From: a virus
IMG/VR virus record: IMGVR_UViG_3300021085_000031
Span: 1 to 60,532 of that record
DNA length: 60,532 nucleotides
Reading direction: 5' to 3' (one strand)
Shown: piece after piece, positions 49,779-60,000 of the stretch
Position numbering within the stretch: position 1 is the stretch's first letter
Layout of the letters: each line of letters begins with the position of its first letter
Program-made: the position numbers and the translations under genes
The notes under the pieces: generated by a model
The model's database searches: none
Told to the model about the DNA's origin: nothing
The model's input: the letters and a program-made list of their open reading frames with translations, nothing else

Positions 49779-52250
49779 ATGAGTGTTCCACTAAAATTAA
49801 AAAATACCGCAGACTTCCAGAAGATGTCTACAACGGAGGAGAACTATCTTGCGTATGAAGCAGGATTAGACCTCGCCAGTTTAGACAGTTCTTCGGTTGG
49901 TACATTAGGTACAGACTTGTCGGGAGACAATCGTACTGTTGGTTCATTTATTGATACTTCATTTGACGATGCAGTAGGAACCACCGAAGCAGGTAATCTT
50001 CTTTCAACAACAAGCATAACTACTGTAATCCGACAGAAAGCGGGTCAAGCAGCTATACACGCTGACAGTGATTATCGTGTTCCTATTTTCCATACGGACG
50101 ATAACGGAACAACACCAAACAAATTATCGGAAATGGATTCTGATAATGTTAATACTTTGGTTGATAGAATCAATTCTAGAATATACACATCTGATTATCC
50201 AGGCACATACAAGTTATCAACATCCGCACCTAGTGGTGACTATGTTCTAAACAAAGCCAATGTCATGACCGATACAAGAACTGACGGGCATTCTTTATCA
50301 TACAACATCTACAAAAGAACTACAATGACCCCACCGACTACGGTGTTGCCATTTGCGATTAAACGTTCGGGTGGACGTACTGGTACATATCAAGGTATTC
50401 AACGAATGACTCCACGTCAGGTTAGGAAGACGTTTGGTGTTAATTCAAGAAACCGTACAGCTGCAAGTAGTAATAGTGTTGGTACATATAAAATCTTCAG
50501 TGCAACCGAAGGAACTCCGACAGCAAATGGACTTGCTGGTACATGGCAAGCGAAAGGTACAGCAACTGATACCAAGAATACATTAACTGGACAGGACTAT
50601 ACCAGAACTCGTTCATCAAACTATTCGAGATTGAGAACATCAACTTATAGTGACACATACACGAGGACTCGTGAATCTACATATCTGAGAAGTCGTACTT
50701 GTACTCGTGCTAGCACCTATACTGCATACTATACCACAACTCGTAGTAGTAATTACTCTCCGAGTTTTGTTGGTAACTATGTGGGAGACTATACTTCAAA
50801 TAGTACCAGAACTTCTACCAGAAGTAGTACTGCTACCTTACAGTTTACAAGAGAAAGTTCAGGAAGTTTTATTGGTAACTATTCGAGACTCCTTAGTTTT
50901 GTTGGTGACTATTCTGCTGATTATGCTGGTAATTATCTGGGAACTCCGTATGGACGTAATTACTCACGAACATTGTATGTGAGTGTTGACCAAGAGACCT
51001 TCTACTATACCAGTTGGTATTCAGCTGATTTTGTAGGAGCCTATACTGGTAACTATGCTCGTACCTCCACAAACACTGCCGATTATACACGTTCAAGTGG
51101 TGTCGATTATACTGGTAACTATTCCAGAATCGGAACGTATGCGGGTAACTTTATTGGCGAATTCGCTGGTAACTTCACACGTGATAGTCAAAGGATTACC
51201 AGTGACCAATTCTCTCGTACCTTTGTTGGTAACTACACTAGAAACTACACCCGTGTTTCATCAATAAACTATCAGAGAACTCGTACAGGTAACTTTGCTC
51301 GTAACTTCGCTGGTAACTATACTGGTAACTTTACTGGTAACTTCCAAAACACAACCGCAGATAGTGGTGCCTTTACTGGTAACTATGTTGGGACAACATC
51401 TGTACCCTATGATGCATCACATACTACTAGTAACACTGCATCTGGATATTATTGGAAACAGGGTTTTGATGCTACGCTGGCGAGGATAACTTTGTATGTT
51501 TATTGGGCTGGTCAACTGGTGTACTATGATGACTATGAACTCAATATTTACGAGGGGGGAATCTATACCGCAGTACCCAGCCAAGTTACAACCGCCAGTG
51601 GTGTAACCTATACCAGAGGTACTGTGTATCAATATTCAAATTTCAACAACTTGGATACTTACTACGGTGTAATACAACAAGCCTCAACAACTACTGCAAC
51701 GTATATAGGTAACTATGCTCCTGCTACTAGCGGTAATCTGCCAGGCAACTATGTTGGTAACTATGCTGCGGTATTTACTGGTGATTATCTGGGTGGTGGT
51801 AAGAGTGGTGATTTGACAAACTATATTGGTAATTACACTGGTGGAGATTACACAAGACAATCAATTGTAGAGTCTACCAGAGACAGTACCAGAAGTAGTA
51901 CAAGAAATAGGTCAAGTACTTATGCTGGTAACTTTGTTGGTGACTATCAGAGAAGTTTTACAGGAAATTATGCAAGAGCATTTACTAGAAGTAGGTCAAG
52001 TACTTTCACAGGTGCTTCTGCTTTTGCTAGAGACTTTACTGGTAATTACTTAGGTAACTATACACGAAACTTCTCTGCCACATATGGTGGTAACTATGCC
52101 CGAAACTTTGCGGGTAACTATATAGGCAATTATGCGAGGAACTTTATCGGAGATTACGGAAGAACATTTGTGGGCAATTATGCGGGTTCCAAGATAGGAA
52201 CAGGAACCGAAAATATTGAAACATATACTCTCTATGTTAGAGTTGCATAA
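49779..52250 (+). CDS. Tetrapeptide-repeat tail fibre, paralogue 1
   Basis: 823 residues. Residues 1-~270 form a globular N-terminal domain (TTEENYLAYEAGLDLASLDSS, YPGTYKLSTSAPSG, PFAIKRSGGRTGTYQGIQRMT) shared with the next gene. From ~273 to ~815 the chain is a four-residue repeat, Y/F-x-G/R-N/D/T (for example YTGN FTGN FARN YAGN), interrupted at ~535-640 by a non-repetitive beta domain (ARITLYVYWAGQLVYYDDYELN). It ends ETYTLYVRVA, as does its paralogue (ETYTLYQRTA). Probably a distal fibre; the fold of the repeat is not known to me. Confidence 0.7.
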   Translation: MSVPLKLKNTADFQKMSTTEENYLAYEAGLDLASLDSSSVGTLGTDLSGDNRTVGSFIDTSFDDAVGTTEAGNLLSTTSITTVIRQKAGQAAIHADSDYRVPIFHTDDNGTTPNKLSEMDSDNVNTLVDRINSRIYTSDYPGTYKLSTSAPSGDYVLNKANVMTDTRTDGHSLSYNIYKRTTMTPPTTVLPFAIKRSGGRTGTYQGIQRMTPRQVRKTFGVNSRNRTAASSNSVGTYKIFSATEGTPTANGLAGTWQAKGTATDTKNTLTGQDYTRTRSSNYSRLRTSTYSDTYTRTRESTYLRSRTCTRASTYTAYYTTTRSSNYSPSFVGNYVGDYTSNSTRTSTRSSTATLQFTRESSGSFIGNYSRLLSFVGDYSADYAGNYLGTPYGRNYSRTLYVSVDQETFYYTSWYSADFVGAYTGNYARTSTNTADYTRSSGVDYTGNYSRIGTYAGNFIGEFAGNFTRDSQRITSDQFSRTFVGNYTRNYTRVSSINYQRTRTGNFARNFAGNYTGNFTGNFQNTTADSGAFTGNYVGTTSVPYDASHTTSNTASGYYWKQGFDATLARITLYVYWAGQLVYYDDYELNIYEGGIYTAVPSQVTTASGVTYTRGTVYQYSNFNNLDTYYGVIQQASTTTATYIGNYAPATSGNLPGNYVGNYAAVFTGDYLGGGKSGDLTNYIGNYTGGDYTRQSIVESTRDSTRSSTRNRSSTYAGNFVGDYQRSFTGNYARAFTRSRSSTFTGASAFARDFTGNYLGNYTRNFSATYGGNYARNFAGNYIGNYARNFIGDYGRTFVGNYAGSKIGTGTENIETYTLYVRVA
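50595..52200 (+). repeat. 12-nt coding repeats (Y/F-x-G/R-N/D/T), first fibre
   Basis: Tandem in-frame 12-nt units such as GGTAACTATGTT / GGTAACTTTGCT, with many third-position differences between copies, so the protein pattern is kept more strictly than the DNA. A stretch at ~51390-51700 is not repetitive (inserted domain). Confidence 0.85.
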
Positions 52251-52260
52251 ATAGGTTGAT

Positions 52261-54741
52261 ATGGGAACTACAACACTAAAACTTGAAGGCACCAATGGTG
52301 ACCTCAAGGAGATAACAACCACAGAAGAAAACTACCTTGCTTATCAGGCGGGGTTGCATCTCTCTGCGTTGGATTCTAGTGATGTGGGAACACTCACTCA
52401 AGTATCCACAAACAATACTTTAATCGGTACATTTACTGATACTAGATTTGATGATGCGTCAGGAACGCACGGATTTAGTGGTGGTAATGTTCCTGTCGTA
52501 CAGACGGTTACTTCTTTGTATCAAAGAGAAGGTGTTGCAGATTTTGCTGGTGATTCAGCTGCATATCGTTACCCAATAGAATTTACTGATAATGGTGGAA
52601 CACCAGAACTTCATGAACTTGATTCATCTGAAGTAGACACTCTTGCAGATAGACTCTTATCTCGTATTGCAGTATCAGAATATCCTGGCGTATATAAAAT
52701 AGCAACATCTGCCCCGACTGGATATACCACATATAAATCATCTGTGTTTGCAGATAGACTACAAACAGGAACAACGGGAACAGTCTATAATCTTTATGTA
52801 AAGAATTCGATGAGCGCACCAACAACAGTAAGACCTGTTGCAATCAAACGTTCATCTGGTCTGACTGGTTCTTTCCAAGGTCTTCAAGAGATGACCGATG
52901 CAGAAATTCGTTATTCCTTTGGTTCTAGAGTTCAGAGTCGTATTACTAATGGTAGTGATGGTATAGGAACATACCAATTGAGAAGTGCTACCCAAGGCGC
53001 TCCAACTGCGAGTGGTACATGGACTAGTCGTGGTACAGGTACAGATACCAGATACAACACAACAAACACTGATTATTCAGCTGACTATACTAGAAGTCGG
53101 TCTAGTAACTATGTGGGTGACTATGCAAGAAACTTCGCACGTACTTTTGCGGGTCAGTTTGTAGGCAACTTCATTACTGAATTTGTCGGTGACTATACAG
53201 GTAACTACTCCAGAAACTTCGGTGGGGATTATACTGGTAACTATGCCCGAAACTTTATCGGAGATTACACTGGTAACTATGCTCGAAACTTTGCGGGTAA
53301 CTATGTAGGTAATTACTCCAGAAACTTTTCCGCTGCATATGCTCGAACAAGGATTACTGATTATGCTGGTAACTTTGTAGGCAACTATGTTGGTAACTAT
53401 GCAAGGGCCTTCAGTGCTGATTATACAAGGAACCGAGCTACCACATTCACTGGTGACTTTGCTGGTAACTTCTTAGGTAACTATGTAGGTAACTATGCTC
53501 GGAACTTCTCTGCAAACTACCAGAGAACAAGAGCAACAAACTATCAGAGAACTCGTGTAACAGACTATGTGGGTGACTTTGTAGGTAACTATGCCACAAA
53601 CTTCACTGGTGATTTTACTGGTAACTATACTACAGTATTCACTGGTAACTTTGTAGGTAACTATGCGACAAACTTCGTGGGTAACTTTGTAGGTAATTAT
53701 GCCACAAACTATGTGGGTAACTTCGCTGGTAACTATTCAAGAACAAGAGCAACAAACTACACAGGTAACTTTGTAGGTAACTACGGAAGAACACGAGCTA
53801 CTGCATATACGAGAAGTCGTGCTACTGCATATTCAAGAACTCGTGCAACTAACTATGCGGGTGGTGGTAAAGGTGGTAACGCTTATAACTACACTGGTAA
53901 CTTTGTAGGTAACTACACTGGTAACTTCGCTGGTAACTACACTGGTAACTTCGCTGGTAACTATTCAAGAACTCGTGCGACCAACTATACTGGTAACTTT
54001 GTGGGTAACTACGGAAGAACTCGTGCAACCACATATACTGGTGACTTCTCAAGAACTCGTGCAACAACATATACAGGAGATTTCTCAAGAACTCGTGTAA
54101 CAGACTATACAGGAAATTTCACAAGAAACAGTACAACGGTTTTCACGGGAGATTTCTCAAGAACAAGGGTAACCACATACACTGGTAACTTCTTGGGTGA
54201 TTACACAGGTAACTTCTTGGGGGATTATACTGGTAACTACGCTAGAAACTATAGTGATGATTACCAAAGAACATCTACTAGAACTCGTTCAACGGACTAT
54301 GTAGGTGATTTTACTGGTAATTATGTTGGTAACTATTCTAGAAACTATAGTGATGATTACACTAGAGAGTCCGTAGTAACCTTTACAGGTGATTTTGTTG
54401 GAGATTATACTGGTAACTATGCACGTGCATATGAAGCTGATTATCAAAGAACAAGAAGTTCTGCATATTCCGCTGTTTATCAAAGAACAAGAAGTTCTAG
54501 TTATTCTGCAAACTATCAGAGAACAAGAACATCTACATATGCAGCAGACTATTTAAGAACATCAACTACAGATTCGACAAGAGAGTCATCTGGTGTATCT
54601 ACAGTATTAAGGGCAAGTACATACACAAGAACTAGTACAAATACCTTTGCGGGTAACTACGTGGGTAACTATGTAGGAACAACGATTGATAGTGGTTCGT
54701 CCACAATTGAGACATATACGTTATACCAAAGAACTGCATAA
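52261..54741 (+). CDS. Tetrapeptide-repeat tail fibre, paralogue 2
   Basis: 826 residues, the most regular version. Residues 1-~270 match paralogue 1 (TTEENYLAYQAGLHLSALDSS, YPGVYKIATSAPTG, PVAIKRSSGLTGSFQGLQ). Residues ~271-810 are nearly unbroken four-residue repeats, in two flavours: YxGN-FxGN runs and R-T-R-A-T-x-Y-T-type runs (SRTRATNYTGNF). About 18 N-x-S/T sequons fall in the repeats by my count. A single Gly-rich break, GGGKGGNAYN, lies near the middle. It ends ETYTLYQRTA. Likely a trimeric receptor-binding fibre. Confidence 0.7.
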   Translation: MGTTTLKLEGTNGDLKEITTTEENYLAYQAGLHLSALDSSDVGTLTQVSTNNTLIGTFTDTRFDDASGTHGFSGGNVPVVQTVTSLYQREGVADFAGDSAAYRYPIEFTDNGGTPELHELDSSEVDTLADRLLSRIAVSEYPGVYKIATSAPTGYTTYKSSVFADRLQTGTTGTVYNLYVKNSMSAPTTVRPVAIKRSSGLTGSFQGLQEMTDAEIRYSFGSRVQSRITNGSDGIGTYQLRSATQGAPTASGTWTSRGTGTDTRYNTTNTDYSADYTRSRSSNYVGDYARNFARTFAGQFVGNFITEFVGDYTGNYSRNFGGDYTGNYARNFIGDYTGNYARNFAGNYVGNYSRNFSAAYARTRITDYAGNFVGNYVGNYARAFSADYTRNRATTFTGDFAGNFLGNYVGNYARNFSANYQRTRATNYQRTRVTDYVGDFVGNYATNFTGDFTGNYTTVFTGNFVGNYATNFVGNFVGNYATNYVGNFAGNYSRTRATNYTGNFVGNYGRTRATAYTRSRATAYSRTRATNYAGGGKGGNAYNYTGNFVGNYTGNFAGNYTGNFAGNYSRTRATNYTGNFVGNYGRTRATTYTGDFSRTRATTYTGDFSRTRVTDYTGNFTRNSTTVFTGDFSRTRVTTYTGNFLGDYTGNFLGDYTGNYARNYSDDYQRTSTRTRSTDYVGDFTGNYVGNYSRNYSDDYTRESVVTFTGDFVGDYTGNYARAYEADYQRTRSSAYSAVYQRTRSSSYSANYQRTRTSTYAADYLRTSTTDSTRESSGVSTVLRASTYTRTSTNTFAGNYVGNYVGTTIDSGSSTIETYTLYQRTA
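53071..54690 (+). repeat. 12-nt coding repeats (Y/F-x-G/R-N/D/T), second fibre
   Basis: About 1.6 kb of in-frame 12-nt units, for example GGTAACTATGTA, GGTAACTTCGCT and AGAACTCGTGCA types. Near-identical blocks recur (for example around 53740-53800 and 53955-54015), so slippage or recombination between units is likely. Confidence 0.9.
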
Positions 54742-54780: not shown

Positions 54781-55230
54781 ATGTCTAGAACATGGTTAGA
54801 TAATGCTTTCTGGGAAACCCCGAAACAAAGAACTCTGAACGCAATAAGTGAAACTGTTGAAGGTAATAAGACCACTCGACTAGTTCACAAAATTGATGCG
54901 ATTAATGCCGATGGTTCAGAAAACGAATTATTTCAAGAAGTCATAGAGTTTCTTGGAGTAGAGAAAATCAACGAAGCAAGTAAGAAACGTCTGGAAAAGA
55001 AACAGGCGGAAGCTGAAATTGAGAAACAAAAGAAAGTAGAACACGAACGTGCAAAGAAACTTGAGAAACTATTTGAGTACAAGTTAGAGACGTTTGAGAT
55101 TCCAGAAATTAAAGATTCTAAAAACAGAGCGTTAAAATCTAAATTGAGACGTTCCAAGTCTATTCCTGAAGTGAACCTCTATGCCATTTTAATTGTACAG
55201 GAAGCACTAGAAGATGTCGGAACAGACTAA
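54781..55230 (+). CDS. 149-aa hypothetical protein with charged helix
   Basis: AGGAG upstream of the ATG. The N-terminus SRTWLDNAFWETPKQRTLNAI is followed by a long charged helix (EASKKRLEKKQAEAEIEKQKKVEHERAKKLEKLFEYKL) and a C-terminal LYAILIVQEALEDVGTD. Such helical proteins next to fibre genes can be assembly chaperones. No family recognised. Overlaps the next gene by 17 nt. Confidence 0.55.
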   Translation: MSRTWLDNAFWETPKQRTLNAISETVEGNKTTRLVHKIDAINADGSENELFQEVIEFLGVEKINEASKKRLEKKQAEAEIEKQKKVEHERAKKLEKLFEYKLETFEIPEIKDSKNRALKSKLRRSKSIPEVNLYAILIVQEALEDVGTD

Positions 55231-55960
55231 AGGTTTTGTAGTAGTTGCATCCAGAAATCATAACTTCTATGTGTATGCAGTAAACTTAATCGAATCAATC
55301 AAAGACTTCTATCCAGAAGCACTTATCACTCTAGTAACCGAAGAACGTTTCGTTGATGACAGAGCGGATGAAGCTGACCAGATAATCTTTTGTGATGACC
55401 ATTATCGTGCAAAACTTTGGGGTATGGCACAATCTCCCTATGATATTACCATGTATGTCGATGCCGATATGGAATGTGAACACGAAGATATCATGACGGT
55501 CTGGGACGAGATGAAAGACTATGATATGGTTTTCCACGAACTGACTAAAGACCGTGAAAAGTACTACGCAATCCGTGAGTTTAAATACAACAATGGTTAT
55601 GAGAAGTATCGACTGTGTGGTGGTGTTTGTCTATATAGAAGTGAGAATCCATTGGTGATGGAATTCATGGACGATTGGAACGAGATGTATCGTAGACAAT
55701 TTGCTGGTGAGTGGAGACCAAAGGGATTTAATGAAGAACAGTGGAGAAAAGACCTCAAACATTTTGACCAGACTACACTTTGGTGGTTGGTCAATAAGGT
55801 AGAGAAATATAAAGATTTGAAGATTGGTATCTTTGAAGATGATATCCGATGGAATTACTTTACACAATATGGTTATGATAACAAGCAATCCAAAAGCGGT
55901 AAACCACCAATCCTTAGACATTACTCTGGATGTTTACAGAAGGACACACTTATAGTATGA
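55214..55960 (+). CDS. GT-A glycosyltransferase next to fibre genes
   Basis: 248 residues. A GT-A start GFVVVASRNHNFYVYAVNLIESIKDFYPEALITLVTEE is followed by ITMYVDADMECE (DxD, Asp83/Asp85), then RLCGGVCLYR and TTLWWLVNK, the acceptor and late catalytic regions. It is separated from the main glycan island by 42 kb and sits directly behind the repeat fibres, so the fibre itself is a possible acceptor (inference). ATGA-coupled to the oxygenase-like gene. Confidence 0.65.
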   Translation: MSEQTKGFVVVASRNHNFYVYAVNLIESIKDFYPEALITLVTEERFVDDRADEADQIIFCDDHYRAKLWGMAQSPYDITMYVDADMECEHEDIMTVWDEMKDYDMVFHELTKDREKYYAIREFKYNNGYEKYRLCGGVCLYRSENPLVMEFMDDWNEMYRRQFAGEWRPKGFNEEQWRKDLKHFDQTTLWWLVNKVEKYKDLKIGIFEDDIRWNYFTQYGYDNKQSKSGKPPILRHYSGCLQKDTLIV

Positions 55961-56646
55961 AGGACATCCCTATATTAAATAAAGAAGTACTCAAGGCTCT
56001 AAAAGAGTTTGAGTGGTACTATGAGAACAGGGAATGGTTACGAGAACATTTACGTACCAATGGTGACCCAAGTAAACGTGATTGGTTTGTTGGTGAAAAA
56101 CACCGTGATGAGATTATATCTCAAGCAGAAAATCACGAAGGTTATCCAGACACCATGCATTGTATATCATTAAAGAATGACCGACTTGATATCGCTCAAC
56201 GTGGTAAGATGTCTGCGGAATCACATAGTGCAGGCATTGTGGAAATCTTCAAGAAGTTTGGAGAGTTGAATACAAATCTTTGTACAATCCTATCCTCACG
56301 AAACAATGCTTTATGTTCACTCTATCCACCGAATGGATACATTTCGTGGCATAATAATGCAAATGCATCCGCATATAACCTAATCTTTACTTGGTCAGAG
56401 ACAGGTGAAGGCAACTTTAAGTATGTCGATGGTCACACAGGAAAGACTGTTGTGATGAAAGACAAGAAAGGTTGGCAATGTAAAGCTGGATATTTCGGTG
56501 CATATAGTGAACCTTGGTACAATAGGGTATATCATGCAGCCGAAACAGATTGTTGGAGACTCACGGTATCCTATATCTTTGACCGAACTGACATGTCAAT
56601 GGGTTTACAAGACGAAATCGTAGAAGAAATAATGTCAGATTACTAG
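55957..56646 (+). CDS. 2OG-Fe(II) oxygenase-like protein
   Basis: 229 residues from the ATG at 55957 (ATGA overlap; an ATG at 55930 lies within the upstream gene). The jelly-roll core shows YISWHNNANASAYNLIFTWS, GEGNFKYVDGHTG, and YNRVYHAAETDCWRLTVSYIFD. Candidate ligands are His132, Asn134 (where Asp is usual), His193 and the 2OG-binding Arg201, 8 residues after the distal His. The Asp-to-Asn change is odd and could mean altered chemistry. Possible hydroxylation of a phage protein or glycan. Confidence 0.55.
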   Translation: MKDIPILNKEVLKALKEFEWYYENREWLREHLRTNGDPSKRDWFVGEKHRDEIISQAENHEGYPDTMHCISLKNDRLDIAQRGKMSAESHSAGIVEIFKKFGELNTNLCTILSSRNNALCSLYPPNGYISWHNNANASAYNLIFTWSETGEGNFKYVDGHTGKTVVMKDKKGWQCKAGYFGAYSEPWYNRVYHAAETDCWRLTVSYIFDRTDMSMGLQDEIVEEIMSDY

Positions 56647-56666
56647 ATTCTTGGACTTCCAAACCT

Positions 56667-56674
56667 TATAAATA
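56667..56674 (+). promoter_or_regulatory. T4-type late promoter for the last fibre genes
   Basis: CCTTATAAATA context as at 28721 and 40568, 36 nt before the ATG at 56711, after a gene end. Confidence 0.6.
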
Positions 56675-56710
56675 AACACATAAAGGTTTTTATTTAAATG
56701 GGTACTGAGA

Positions 56711-57079
56711 ATGTCATCTAGTAATTACGAAGATATAACAATTAATCAAGGGACGGATGTTGCTGTAGAGATACATCTCATCCACGATAGCGGAAGCGCA
56801 TACGACCTGACCAACCACTCGGTTGCTGCCAGACTAAAACGTAGATTTGGCGATTCAGCTGATGACCCCGATACGATAGACTTCAACACTATTGTAGTGA
56901 ATCCGTCTCTTAACGGAATCATAAATTTATCACTAACTAATACTCAAACAGATTCTATGAAGACTCGTGGAAGATATGTCTATGATGTAGAAGTATCTTA
57001 TACTGACAGTGATGGTAACAACATAATCCAAAGAGTCCTCGAAGGACAAGCCGAAGTCACGCCATCGGTCACGAAATAA
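56711..57079 (+). CDS. 122-aa beta-rich tail protein (BppU-N-like)
   Basis: INQGTDVAVEIHLIHDSGSAYDLTNHSVAARLKRRFGDS and INLSLTNTQTDSMKTRGRYVYDVEVSYTDSDGNNIIQRVLEGQAEV form an Ig-like beta sandwich typical of N-terminal BppU/receptor-binding linkers. Located before the last giant fibre, it probably attaches it. Starts behind a late promoter. Confidence 0.6.
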   Translation: MSSSNYEDITINQGTDVAVEIHLIHDSGSAYDLTNHSVAARLKRRFGDSADDPDTIDFNTIVVNPSLNGIINLSLTNTQTDSMKTRGRYVYDVEVSYTDSDGNNIIQRVLEGQAEVTPSVTK

Positions 57080-57091
57080 AAGGGAAGAATA

Positions 57092-60000
57092 ATGACTGAT
57101 AAAATTATTGTCAAAAAAGTAGTTGTCGGTACACCCATTAAGAAGGTTACTGCGGGTGCGTTTAGTATATCTAACCTCGCTGGTGTTGACGTTAGTGCAA
57201 CAGAATCCGATGGTTCTATCCTTGCGTATAACAAATCTACGAGTAAGTGGGAAATCACTAACTTACGTACAGATGAGAATATCACTGCTGTCTTTGATAG
57301 TGAACAAAATAAATACACCTTTGGCTTGACAAACTCGTCATTTACTGGTAGTATAGTTCCAGACTCCAATGAGGCATATGACCTTGGTAGTGCAACTAAA
57401 AAATGGAAAGACCTATACCTAAGTGGCAATACTATTACGTTAGGAACCCTATCTCTAAAAGATAGTGGTGGTAACTTAACTGTAGTTGACGCAAACAATA
57501 ATAAAATAAACCTTGATATATCTTTAAGTACAAACAATACTGCGGTATTCTCTTTTGATAGTGCGACTGGTACATTCACATTCAATGATTCAGACCTTGC
57601 ACAAACAGATGTCGCAGAGACTTTCCATCAAGGATTGACTATCGTCAATGGTGCGACTATTGATAGTGCGACAATCACCAACATTGCAAACACACAATTA
57701 ACAGGAAGTCAAGCGACTTTCGATAGTGCTAACATTGGTACTCTACGAGTAACTGGTAATACCGTCTTAGATGGTAATCTGACCATTACGGGTACTGAGA
57801 CTACCGTAAACACTGAAACAATTAATCTTGCTGATAACACGATTGTTCTTAACTCCAATGCAACAGGAGCCCCAACCGAGAATGCGGGTATTGAAATTGA
57901 ACGTGGTGACTCTGCAAACAAAACATTCTTGTGGAACGAAGGTGCTCAATACTGGGATATAGGTTCAGATACTTTTCATACCACGGGTAAGATTTTATTC
58001 GGTAACGTCTATAGTTCAGAAGCTGACCTTCCAGATGCAAATGCCTATCATGGTATGTTCGCACATGTTCACGGAACAGGTAAAGGTTACTTTGCACATG
58101 GTGGTCAGTGGAGAAAATTAGTAGACTCCGATAACACTGCACAACAACAAGTATACAATCTTACATCTGCAATAGCAGATATCACAGATGGTACAATCAC
58201 TACACTTTACAACCAGAATCTCATTGGTGGTCAAGCAACATTTGATTCTGCAAGTATAACGTCACTTGGTAAGGTTGCTGGTGTTGATGCAACAACAACC
58301 GCAACTATGCGTGGTCTATTCTCCGCTGGGGGTGACTTAACATATAACAGTGGTACTGGACAATTCACGTTTGATGTAGAAGATGTCTACACCAAAGCAA
58401 ACTTTGATTCTGATTTAGGACTCGCAAACAGTGGTCAACTACCAGAAGGTACAAACTTATATTACACTACTACTCGTGCTGATTCTGATTTCGATGTCAG
58501 ACTCGGCACGAAATCGACATCTGATGTCAGTGAGGGTAGTAACTTATACTACACCACTGCACGTGCCGATAGTGACGCAAAACGTTCCGTATCAGTAACA
58601 GATGCTGGGGGAGATGGTTCTCTTTCATATAATTCTACAACTGGTGTAATCACATATACTGGCCCAAGTGCAGCTGAAGTAAGACAACATTTCAGTGCTA
58701 GTGGTGACATAACTTATAATAGTACAACTGGTGTTTTCTCTATTGACGTGGAAGATGTTTATACGAAGGTTAACTTCGATAGTGACTTCCTAAGTCGATT
58801 GACTACACAGATTGATAGTGCGGGTATTACTACATTAACAAATACCAATGCAACTATCACAAACTTAACAGGAAGTCAAGCAACATTTGACTCTGCGAAC
58901 ATCACCTCTCTAGGTGCGGTAGCTGGTGTTGATGCAACAACAACTGCTACGATTCGTGGACTCTTTACTGGTGCTGGTGACCTAACTTACAATAATGCAA
59001 CAGGTGAATTCACTTTTGATGTAGAAAGTGTTTACACCAAAGCAAACTTTGATTCAGACCTTGGACTTGCAAACACAGGACAATTACCCGAAGGAAGTAA
59101 TCTCTACTATACCACTGCTCGTGCAGACTCGGATGCGAAGGCATCTTTATTAGTCAATGACGCTGGTGGTGATGGTTCATTGTCATATGACAGTGCAAGT
59201 GGTGTCTTTACTTACACAGGGCCTAATGCAACCGAAGTCAGAGCACACTTAACCGCAAATAAAGGACTTTCCGTTACTAACGGTGAGTTTAACATAGATT
59301 CTGACAATGTCAAGGGAATGTTCTCTGCGACTGACGCTGGTGGTGACGGAAGTTTCAGTTACAGTAACGGTGTCTTTACATATACAGGCCCATCTGCTAC
59401 TGAAGTCAGAGCACACTTAACTGCAAATAAAGGTTTATCTGTAACCTCTGGTGAGTTTAACATAGACTCCGCAAATGTCAAGGGAATGTTTGCAGGGAAC
59501 AAGGGTCTATCCTATACGGATGGAACATTCGATATTGACTCTGCTAATGTCAAGGGGATGTTTGCTGGTGACAAGGGTCTGACATATTCAAACGGAACAT
59601 TCAATATTGACTCCGCAAATGTCAAAGGAATGTTCTCGGTTACCGATGCAGGCGGAGATGGTTCTGCATCTTATAATTCTAGTACGGGTGTAATCACATA
59701 CACAGGCCCGAGTGCGTCCGAGACAAGAGCACATTTCTCAGGTTCAACAGGAGTAACCTATAATTCAGGTACAGGTGCAATTGCAATCGGTCAGTCAGTT
59801 GGTACTACCGATGATGTAACATTCGGTAAGGTAACTCAAGACAGTGCGGTATCGAAGGGTATTCAGTTTACTCCACAGACCTCTGCATTCTCGCAAACTG
59901 CTGGTTCATTGTACTTTGACTCTGAACAGAACAAGGGTCTTTCGGTTCGACTGCGTACTCAAGAAAACGCAAACCCCGATGTAAGTCTAAACGTTGGTCA

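Follow-up and report, generated by a model that had tools for sequence, protein, structure and literature searches.

We report here that a tail-fibre-like protein of 826 residues from a marine phage, encoded by open reading frame (ORF) B at positions 52261–54741 of the viral record IMGVR_UViG_3300021085_000031 (the window, 60,532 nucleotides in its full length; all features given below lie on its plus strand), is very probably a tail fibre made of a base domain and a giant antiparallel two-stranded beta-hairpin ribbon, which the products of neighbouring genes would modify. The hairpin topology is strongly supported at the level of sequence, where mirror complementarity between the halves of a repeat array, a turn at its midpoint, a common anchor for its two ends, a lock between anchor and pairing register, and synteny are all shown. 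An earlier note on this DNA had described the array as a strict four-residue repeat; the period stands, but the mirror organisation, that of an apparently self-complementary hairpin running out and back within a loop of the base domain, had been overlooked.

The array occupies residues ~273–803 (53077–54669, slightly inside the limits of 53071–54690 proposed earlier) and its four-residue period is strict: 105 of the 108 Tyr and Phe residues of positions 271–826 fall into one class modulo 4, a share that reaches at most 43% in 20,000 shuffles. The unit reads x1-[G/R/T]2-[N/D/T]3-[Y/F/R/S]4 and, over 134 tetrads (counted as x1-G2-N3-Y4), Y (66), F (39), R (19) and S (8) occupy position 4, G (58), R (35) and T (22) position 2, and N (60), D (27) and T (27) position 3. 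The claim that an aromatic residue recurs at every fourth position is right as to the single register, but about one-fifth of the units have Arg or Ser instead, and these residues are part of the pairing rule described below. Likewise, the array had been said to run with almost no break; its sole clear glycine-rich interruption, AGGG-KGGN at residues 533–540, lies in its exact middle. Homologues with arrays of 540, 564, 588, 848 and 896 residues keep this glycine motif at the same fraction, 0.50, of array length, and its location at the midpoint suggested the central turn of an out-and-back chain. Of 561 insertions and deletions (indels) between homologues sharing 70% identity or more, 406 are multiples of four residues, with single tetrads the most frequent, and aligner noise accounts for part of the others. 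Synonymous codons vary among the units (Tyr as TAT 48 and as TAC 17 times, the two Phe codons 20 and 19 times, Thr with four codons), consistent with the selection on the protein pattern that had been read from these differences. A beta-solenoid with a coil of 12 residues, or three tetrads, was rejected because mirror pairing fits the pattern better and indels are mostly single tetrads, without enrichment of multiples of 12; the ORF B tetrads do show a weak autocorrelation at lags of 3 and 6 tetrads.

Pairing was scanned by setting residue r against residue S−r, using only those registers S that preserve the tetrad phase. A single register, S=1076, whose centre at residue 538 lies within GGGKGG, gives z values of 16.8 for position 4 against position 4 and of 10.0 for position 2 against position 2, and all other registers in ORF B stay at or below 6. 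It sets an outgoing arm (residues 273–532, 53077–53856) against a returning arm (541–803, 53881–54669) on either side of the tip AGGGKGGN (533–540, 53857–53880), and the arms display mirror complementarity in this register only. Among the 66 tetrad pairs, position 4 holds 26 Y:Y, 19 F:R, 11 F:Y and 7 F:S pairs with a single F:F and no R:R, and position 2 holds 24 G:R, 19 G:T and 8 G:A pairs with a single G:G. Shuffling yields on average 5.7 F:R pairs and, in 200,000 trials, never more than 14, against the 19 observed; dependence between positions 1 and 3 is slight (z 2–3). The facing of r and S−r about one turn, as in an antiparallel beta-hairpin, is found here as a statistical and not a structural property, and the common anchoring of both ends and the central turn that go with such a hairpin are both present.

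The anchoring follows from the base domain (residues 1–272, 52261–53076), which is modelled by AlphaFold2 (AF2) with a predicted local distance difference test score (pLDDT) mostly of 70–97 and consists of three tandem homologous units (~1–98, 99–190 and 191–272). Units 1 and 2 match each other at an E value of 2.5e-5; once the array is excised, units 2 and 3 do so at an E value of 3.7e-7. The latter match extends through the C-terminal strand (SSTIETYTLYQRTA, residues 804–826, 54670–54738, pLDDT 92–94), which aligns to the terminal part of unit 2 and completes unit 3; the array therefore separates the two final strands of unit 3, and its ends are co-located. With D262 and Y819, or their equivalents, as anchor residues in the base, the offset S−(D+Y) equals −5 in 23 of 25 arrays whose half-spans range from 90 to ~900 residues, the exceptions being L033 (−9) and phage C48C1 (−6), and where the arms contain a small register shift (bulge) it is the outer register that yields −5. 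Mirror register and anchor positions are independent measures, and they agree to the residue.

A search among metagenomic phages, which the earlier note had called for, returned homologues in 75 IMG/VR loci. By base domain, the phage collection holds one homologue, in the record of phage C48C1, and no base-domain relatives were found in bacterial or archaeal genomes; base-domain identity places the sequences in 11 groups at a 60% cut, with the A types discussed below included. Matches in Enterococcus phages were set aside as low-complexity, the one inspected lying outside and antisense to annotated genes. A pair matrix trained on five homologues with the GGGK motif was then applied to sequences outside the training set. 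In the held-out L013, L004, L018, L023 and L033, the top-scoring mirror register is centred on the array midpoint or close to it, with a score ~2–4 times that of the runner-up. Over 11 held-out arrays, with expected counts drawn from phase-preserving register shifts, F:R (226, 75 expected) and Y:Y (334, 205 expected) are enriched; R:R (37, 129 expected), R:Y (28, 135 expected) and F:F (20, 56 expected) are depleted, as are the glycine pairs G:G (49, 115 expected) and G:S (8, 81 expected). This shift control and the scans of offsets within each sequence are firmer tests than the shuffle z-scores, which are possibly inflated across homologues where arms change phase. Furthermore, pairs changed on both sides among homologues number 28 against 9.4 expected, L007 has mirrored insertions of 10 residues that break the phase and lie equally far from the tip on both arms, and pairing continues free of gaps over arms of 643 and of 789 residues (the latter per arm in L069). 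In C48C1, four nested stems surround one tip and the returning arm bears extra domains. Sequences of the L075/L071 type give no mirror signal, which indicates that tetrads alone do not generate the score.

Beyond topology, we infer the geometry and length of the ribbon, its oligomeric state, its location on the virion, host binding at its tip and its modification. The ribbon would project from the last beta-hairpin loop of the compact three-unit base domain, run outward for ~260 residues, turn at GGGKGG and come back over ~260 residues into the strand that completes the base, a single chain thus zipping onto itself with residue r opposite 1076−r. One face of the ribbon would present position 4 (Y:Y; F against R, S or Y) alternating with position 2 (G against R, T or A): since residues two apart lie on the same face, large pairs (Y:Y, F:R) would alternate with glycine opposite a larger residue. 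As the arms would be zipped in exact register throughout, a change of length in one would need a match in the other. With a rise of ~0.33 nm for each residue, the length of an arm would be ~85 nm. The tip, a glycine turn in ORF B, would be formed by other inserts in relatives, and the probable receptor-binding site is the tip itself or inserts close to it. On balance we favour the wider proposal of a natural 'duplex' in protein form: a pairing code (Y:Y, F:R/S, G:R/T/A) would build single-chain antiparallel hairpins with arms of ~90 to ~900 residues, compensatory substitutions and matched indels would hold the arms in exact register, and an adjacent hydroxylase-fold enzyme and a glycosyltransferase would be dedicated to their modification.

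Directly upstream of B, ORF A (49779–52250) encodes a paralogue of 823 residues with the same base domain, 47% identical to B over residues 5–339, in which the tetrads are accompanied by larger inserts. Its putative base stem pairs an outgoing strand (50598–50690) with a returning one (52089–52181) in the register predicted from the anchor, with a score of 24 that is weak on its own. In A-type paralogues the best overall stem often lies elsewhere owing to the inserts; near the base, the anchor-predicted register ranks, out of 161, first in six of nine A types, second in one and third in ORF A of the window, and fails in L045. Globular inserts that may be related to one another ('VEVYVGGSLVA...GVVYNRG', 'ITLYVYWAGQLVYYDD...GVTYTRG') occur in L153 (3469–4806), L156 (3142–4800), the window (~51387–51700) and L001 CDS0201; those of them that were searched had no match in Pfam, and they are candidate receptor-binding domains. 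Other tips consist of short repeats. In the tips of L069 (protein residues 1056–1257) and L036 (915–1186), repeats of 10 residues read YARTLYYTGN to one side and SYARDRAYYP to the other; they may follow a second pairing code whose period is 10. Those of L059 (3142–4488) and L061 (5989–7305) have six NYAGPT hexamers on one flank and four to five NYLGExSGAV decamers on the other flank.

Downstream of the fibre gene four genes follow in fixed order, and the resulting five-gene cassette (the fibre gene with 54781–57079 in the window) is intact in nearly all relatives. The first (54781–55230) encodes a small charged protein of 149 residues, conserved in nearly all cassette loci and a possible chaperone. 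The second (55214–55960, 248 residues) is glycosyltransferase-like: it has the DxD motif of GT-A enzymes, with D83 and D85 invariant in A2, and a weak match to the Pfam family Glycos_transf_2, the best E value among 23 members, reached in relatives, being 0.0019; the window protein itself scores 13.2 bits, below the curated cut-off of 23.3. The product of the third (55930–56646, 238 residues, AF2 pLDDT 90.4) is predicted to adopt the double-stranded beta-helix of prolyl-hydroxylase-type 2-oxoglutarate (2OG)/Fe(II) oxygenases, Foldseek pairing the model with PHD2 and prolyl 4-hydroxylase (P4H) at E values of 2–6e-5 and a probability of 1.00; an hhalign comparison with the 2OG oxygenases of S-RIM2 (probability 0.5%) is superseded by this fold search. 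H141, N143, H202 and R210 are invariant in the alignment of the family, which leaves out the sequence from the phage collection. Judged by motif position, the Asp of the HxD/E...H iron triad, which is accompanied by a distal basic residue in such enzymes, is replaced by Asn (N143) throughout; an invariant WHNN (residues 141–143) stands where active 2OG oxygenases have HxD, and the protein could have an unusual iron site or be a pseudo-enzyme. The fourth gene (56711–57079) encodes a homologue of L-shaped tail fibre assembly proteins (phrog_3304, E value 1.7e-15). Both enzymes are present in the fibre loci with ~3 kb of downstream sequence, and within the phage collection both match C48C1 only. 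Searching from the glycosyltransferase-like gene alone, we found the tetrad fibre directly upstream in 41 of 41 loci, which suggests dedicated modification; the two enzymes probably modify the fibre, and its hydroxylation and glycosylation make a good hypothesis. The cassette genes are present but diverged in L070–L077, a set of short relatives whose tetrads are of YAGSYTG type, with a C-terminal LYVR changed to LWLR and no F:R signal. Near the end of the window, a further fibre-like coding stretch has a 72-bp tandem repeat (24-residue unit) at 59465–59634.

Complementarity statistics alone cannot separate pairing within a chain from pairing between chains, and the same register could arise in an antiparallel homodimer in which r faces 1076−r of the other chain, each end having a base domain and the C-terminal strands being swapped. 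A glycine turn would be superfluous in such a dimer, yet the array has its single glycine-rich break at the exact centre, where other relatives carry larger tips or inserts, and in the AF2 model one and the same domain of the chain holds both ends of the array; we judge the dimer improbable. An ordinary trimeric shaft of parallel, intertwined chains (a triple beta-helix or a beta-spiral), unusual for its four-residue period and with an incidental mirror symmetry, would accord with the T4-like tail region in which the genes lie and with described T4-type fibre shafts, which are parallel trimers (PMC5537660, PMC4576200), but it predicts no antiparallel complementarity in a single register, no central turn and no residue-exact lock to the array ends, and is very improbable. 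The low AF2 confidence of the array, its low-complexity composition and the linked modification enzymes would also be expected of a disordered sticker-spacer chain rich in aromatic residues and arginine, perhaps a modified adhesive, that lacks a fixed fold; this scarcely credible option needs neither the 105/108 aromatic register, nor indels in steps of four, nor residue-exact mirroring across ~ten lineages. It is unlikely, finally, that the hairpin is real and the protein acts elsewhere than in a virion fibre, for instance in or on the infected cell. That it is a fibre, as the earlier note held, is read from gene order alone; in both the window and C48C1 baseplate wedge and tail-fibre genes precede the gene and the L-shaped tail-fibre assembly homologue follows it, and this genome position makes a tail fibre the most likely assignment.

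Several points weigh against the hairpin fibre. The monomer prediction of full-length B that had been proposed earlier is confident for the base and the last strand and leaves the array unresolved, with a pLDDT below 50 over its whole length, and so gives the ribbon no direct structural support. A two-stranded ribbon this long would be unusual by itself, and partners or coiling are therefore likely. Gene position is the one argument for a place on the virion, relatives of the L070–L077 type carry tetrads without the pairing code, ORF A of the window gives the mirror signal weakly, and the linked oxygenase has Asn where active enzymes have Asp.

The proposal that the architecture is undescribed, which placement in a known fold or family would overturn, still holds. 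Sequence searches of Pfam, PHROGs and PDB with ORF B gave no match, nor did BFVD, and the A1 profile found none among PDB chains; a few relatives match unannotated PHROGs or, weakly, one tail-fibre PHROG. A Foldseek search with the full-length model was uninformative, and no published description of the array was found in the literature searched. The sequences speak strongly for the topology and say nothing of atomic detail. A fold is hereby predicted for an unannotated family of marine phage proteins, and the role of the linked modification genes becomes testable. If true, a single chain that zips onto itself to form a fibre, following a residue code that can be read, would represent a new fibre architecture, would extend to a protein the way in which RNA stems evolve, by covariation, bulges and matched indels, and would offer a designable beta-ribbon of tunable length.

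Among known systems, the true relative is CDS0201 of phage C48C1 (Kyanoviridae, OQ984149.1), a protein of 3347 residues annotated as 'hypothetical protein' (97% coverage, 35% identity). It has in common with ORF B the base domain, the cassette, mirror stems, nested in its case, and an anchor offset, here −6; it differs in being fourfold longer with extra domains in the returning arm, and its record describes no function or structure. The triple-stranded beta-helix of T4 gp5 and the long tail fibre gp34 resemble ORF B as long regular beta-structures of a phage tail. They are trimers of parallel intertwined strands, whereas ORF B has a period of 4, antiparallel pairing and a chain that would return to its base, and its antiparallel mirror register speaks against three parallel intertwined chains of the gp5 type. 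The short repeat of gp5, VxGxxxxx with N/D ladders (PMC4576200), is not that of ORF B, with its period of 4 and aromatic residues or Arg at position 4. A four-residue period with G-N also occurs in a structural protein of 1912 residues from Synechococcus phage S-RIM2 (L002 3417–9155); its V/L-T-G-N tetrads are aliphatic where those of ORF B are aromatic, the base domain is not shared, and a relation to these matches was rejected. The linked oxygenase resembles prolyl 4-hydroxylases (PHD2, Pseudomonas putida P4H) in predicted fold, at 8–14% identity and template modelling (TM) scores of 0.3–0.5, and differs from them by HxN in place of HxD. Finally, the RNA stem-loop provides a working analogy only: self-complementary arms, compensatory changes, bulges, nested stems and a variable tip are alike in the two, but ORF B is a protein that would pair through its side chains by a looser code.
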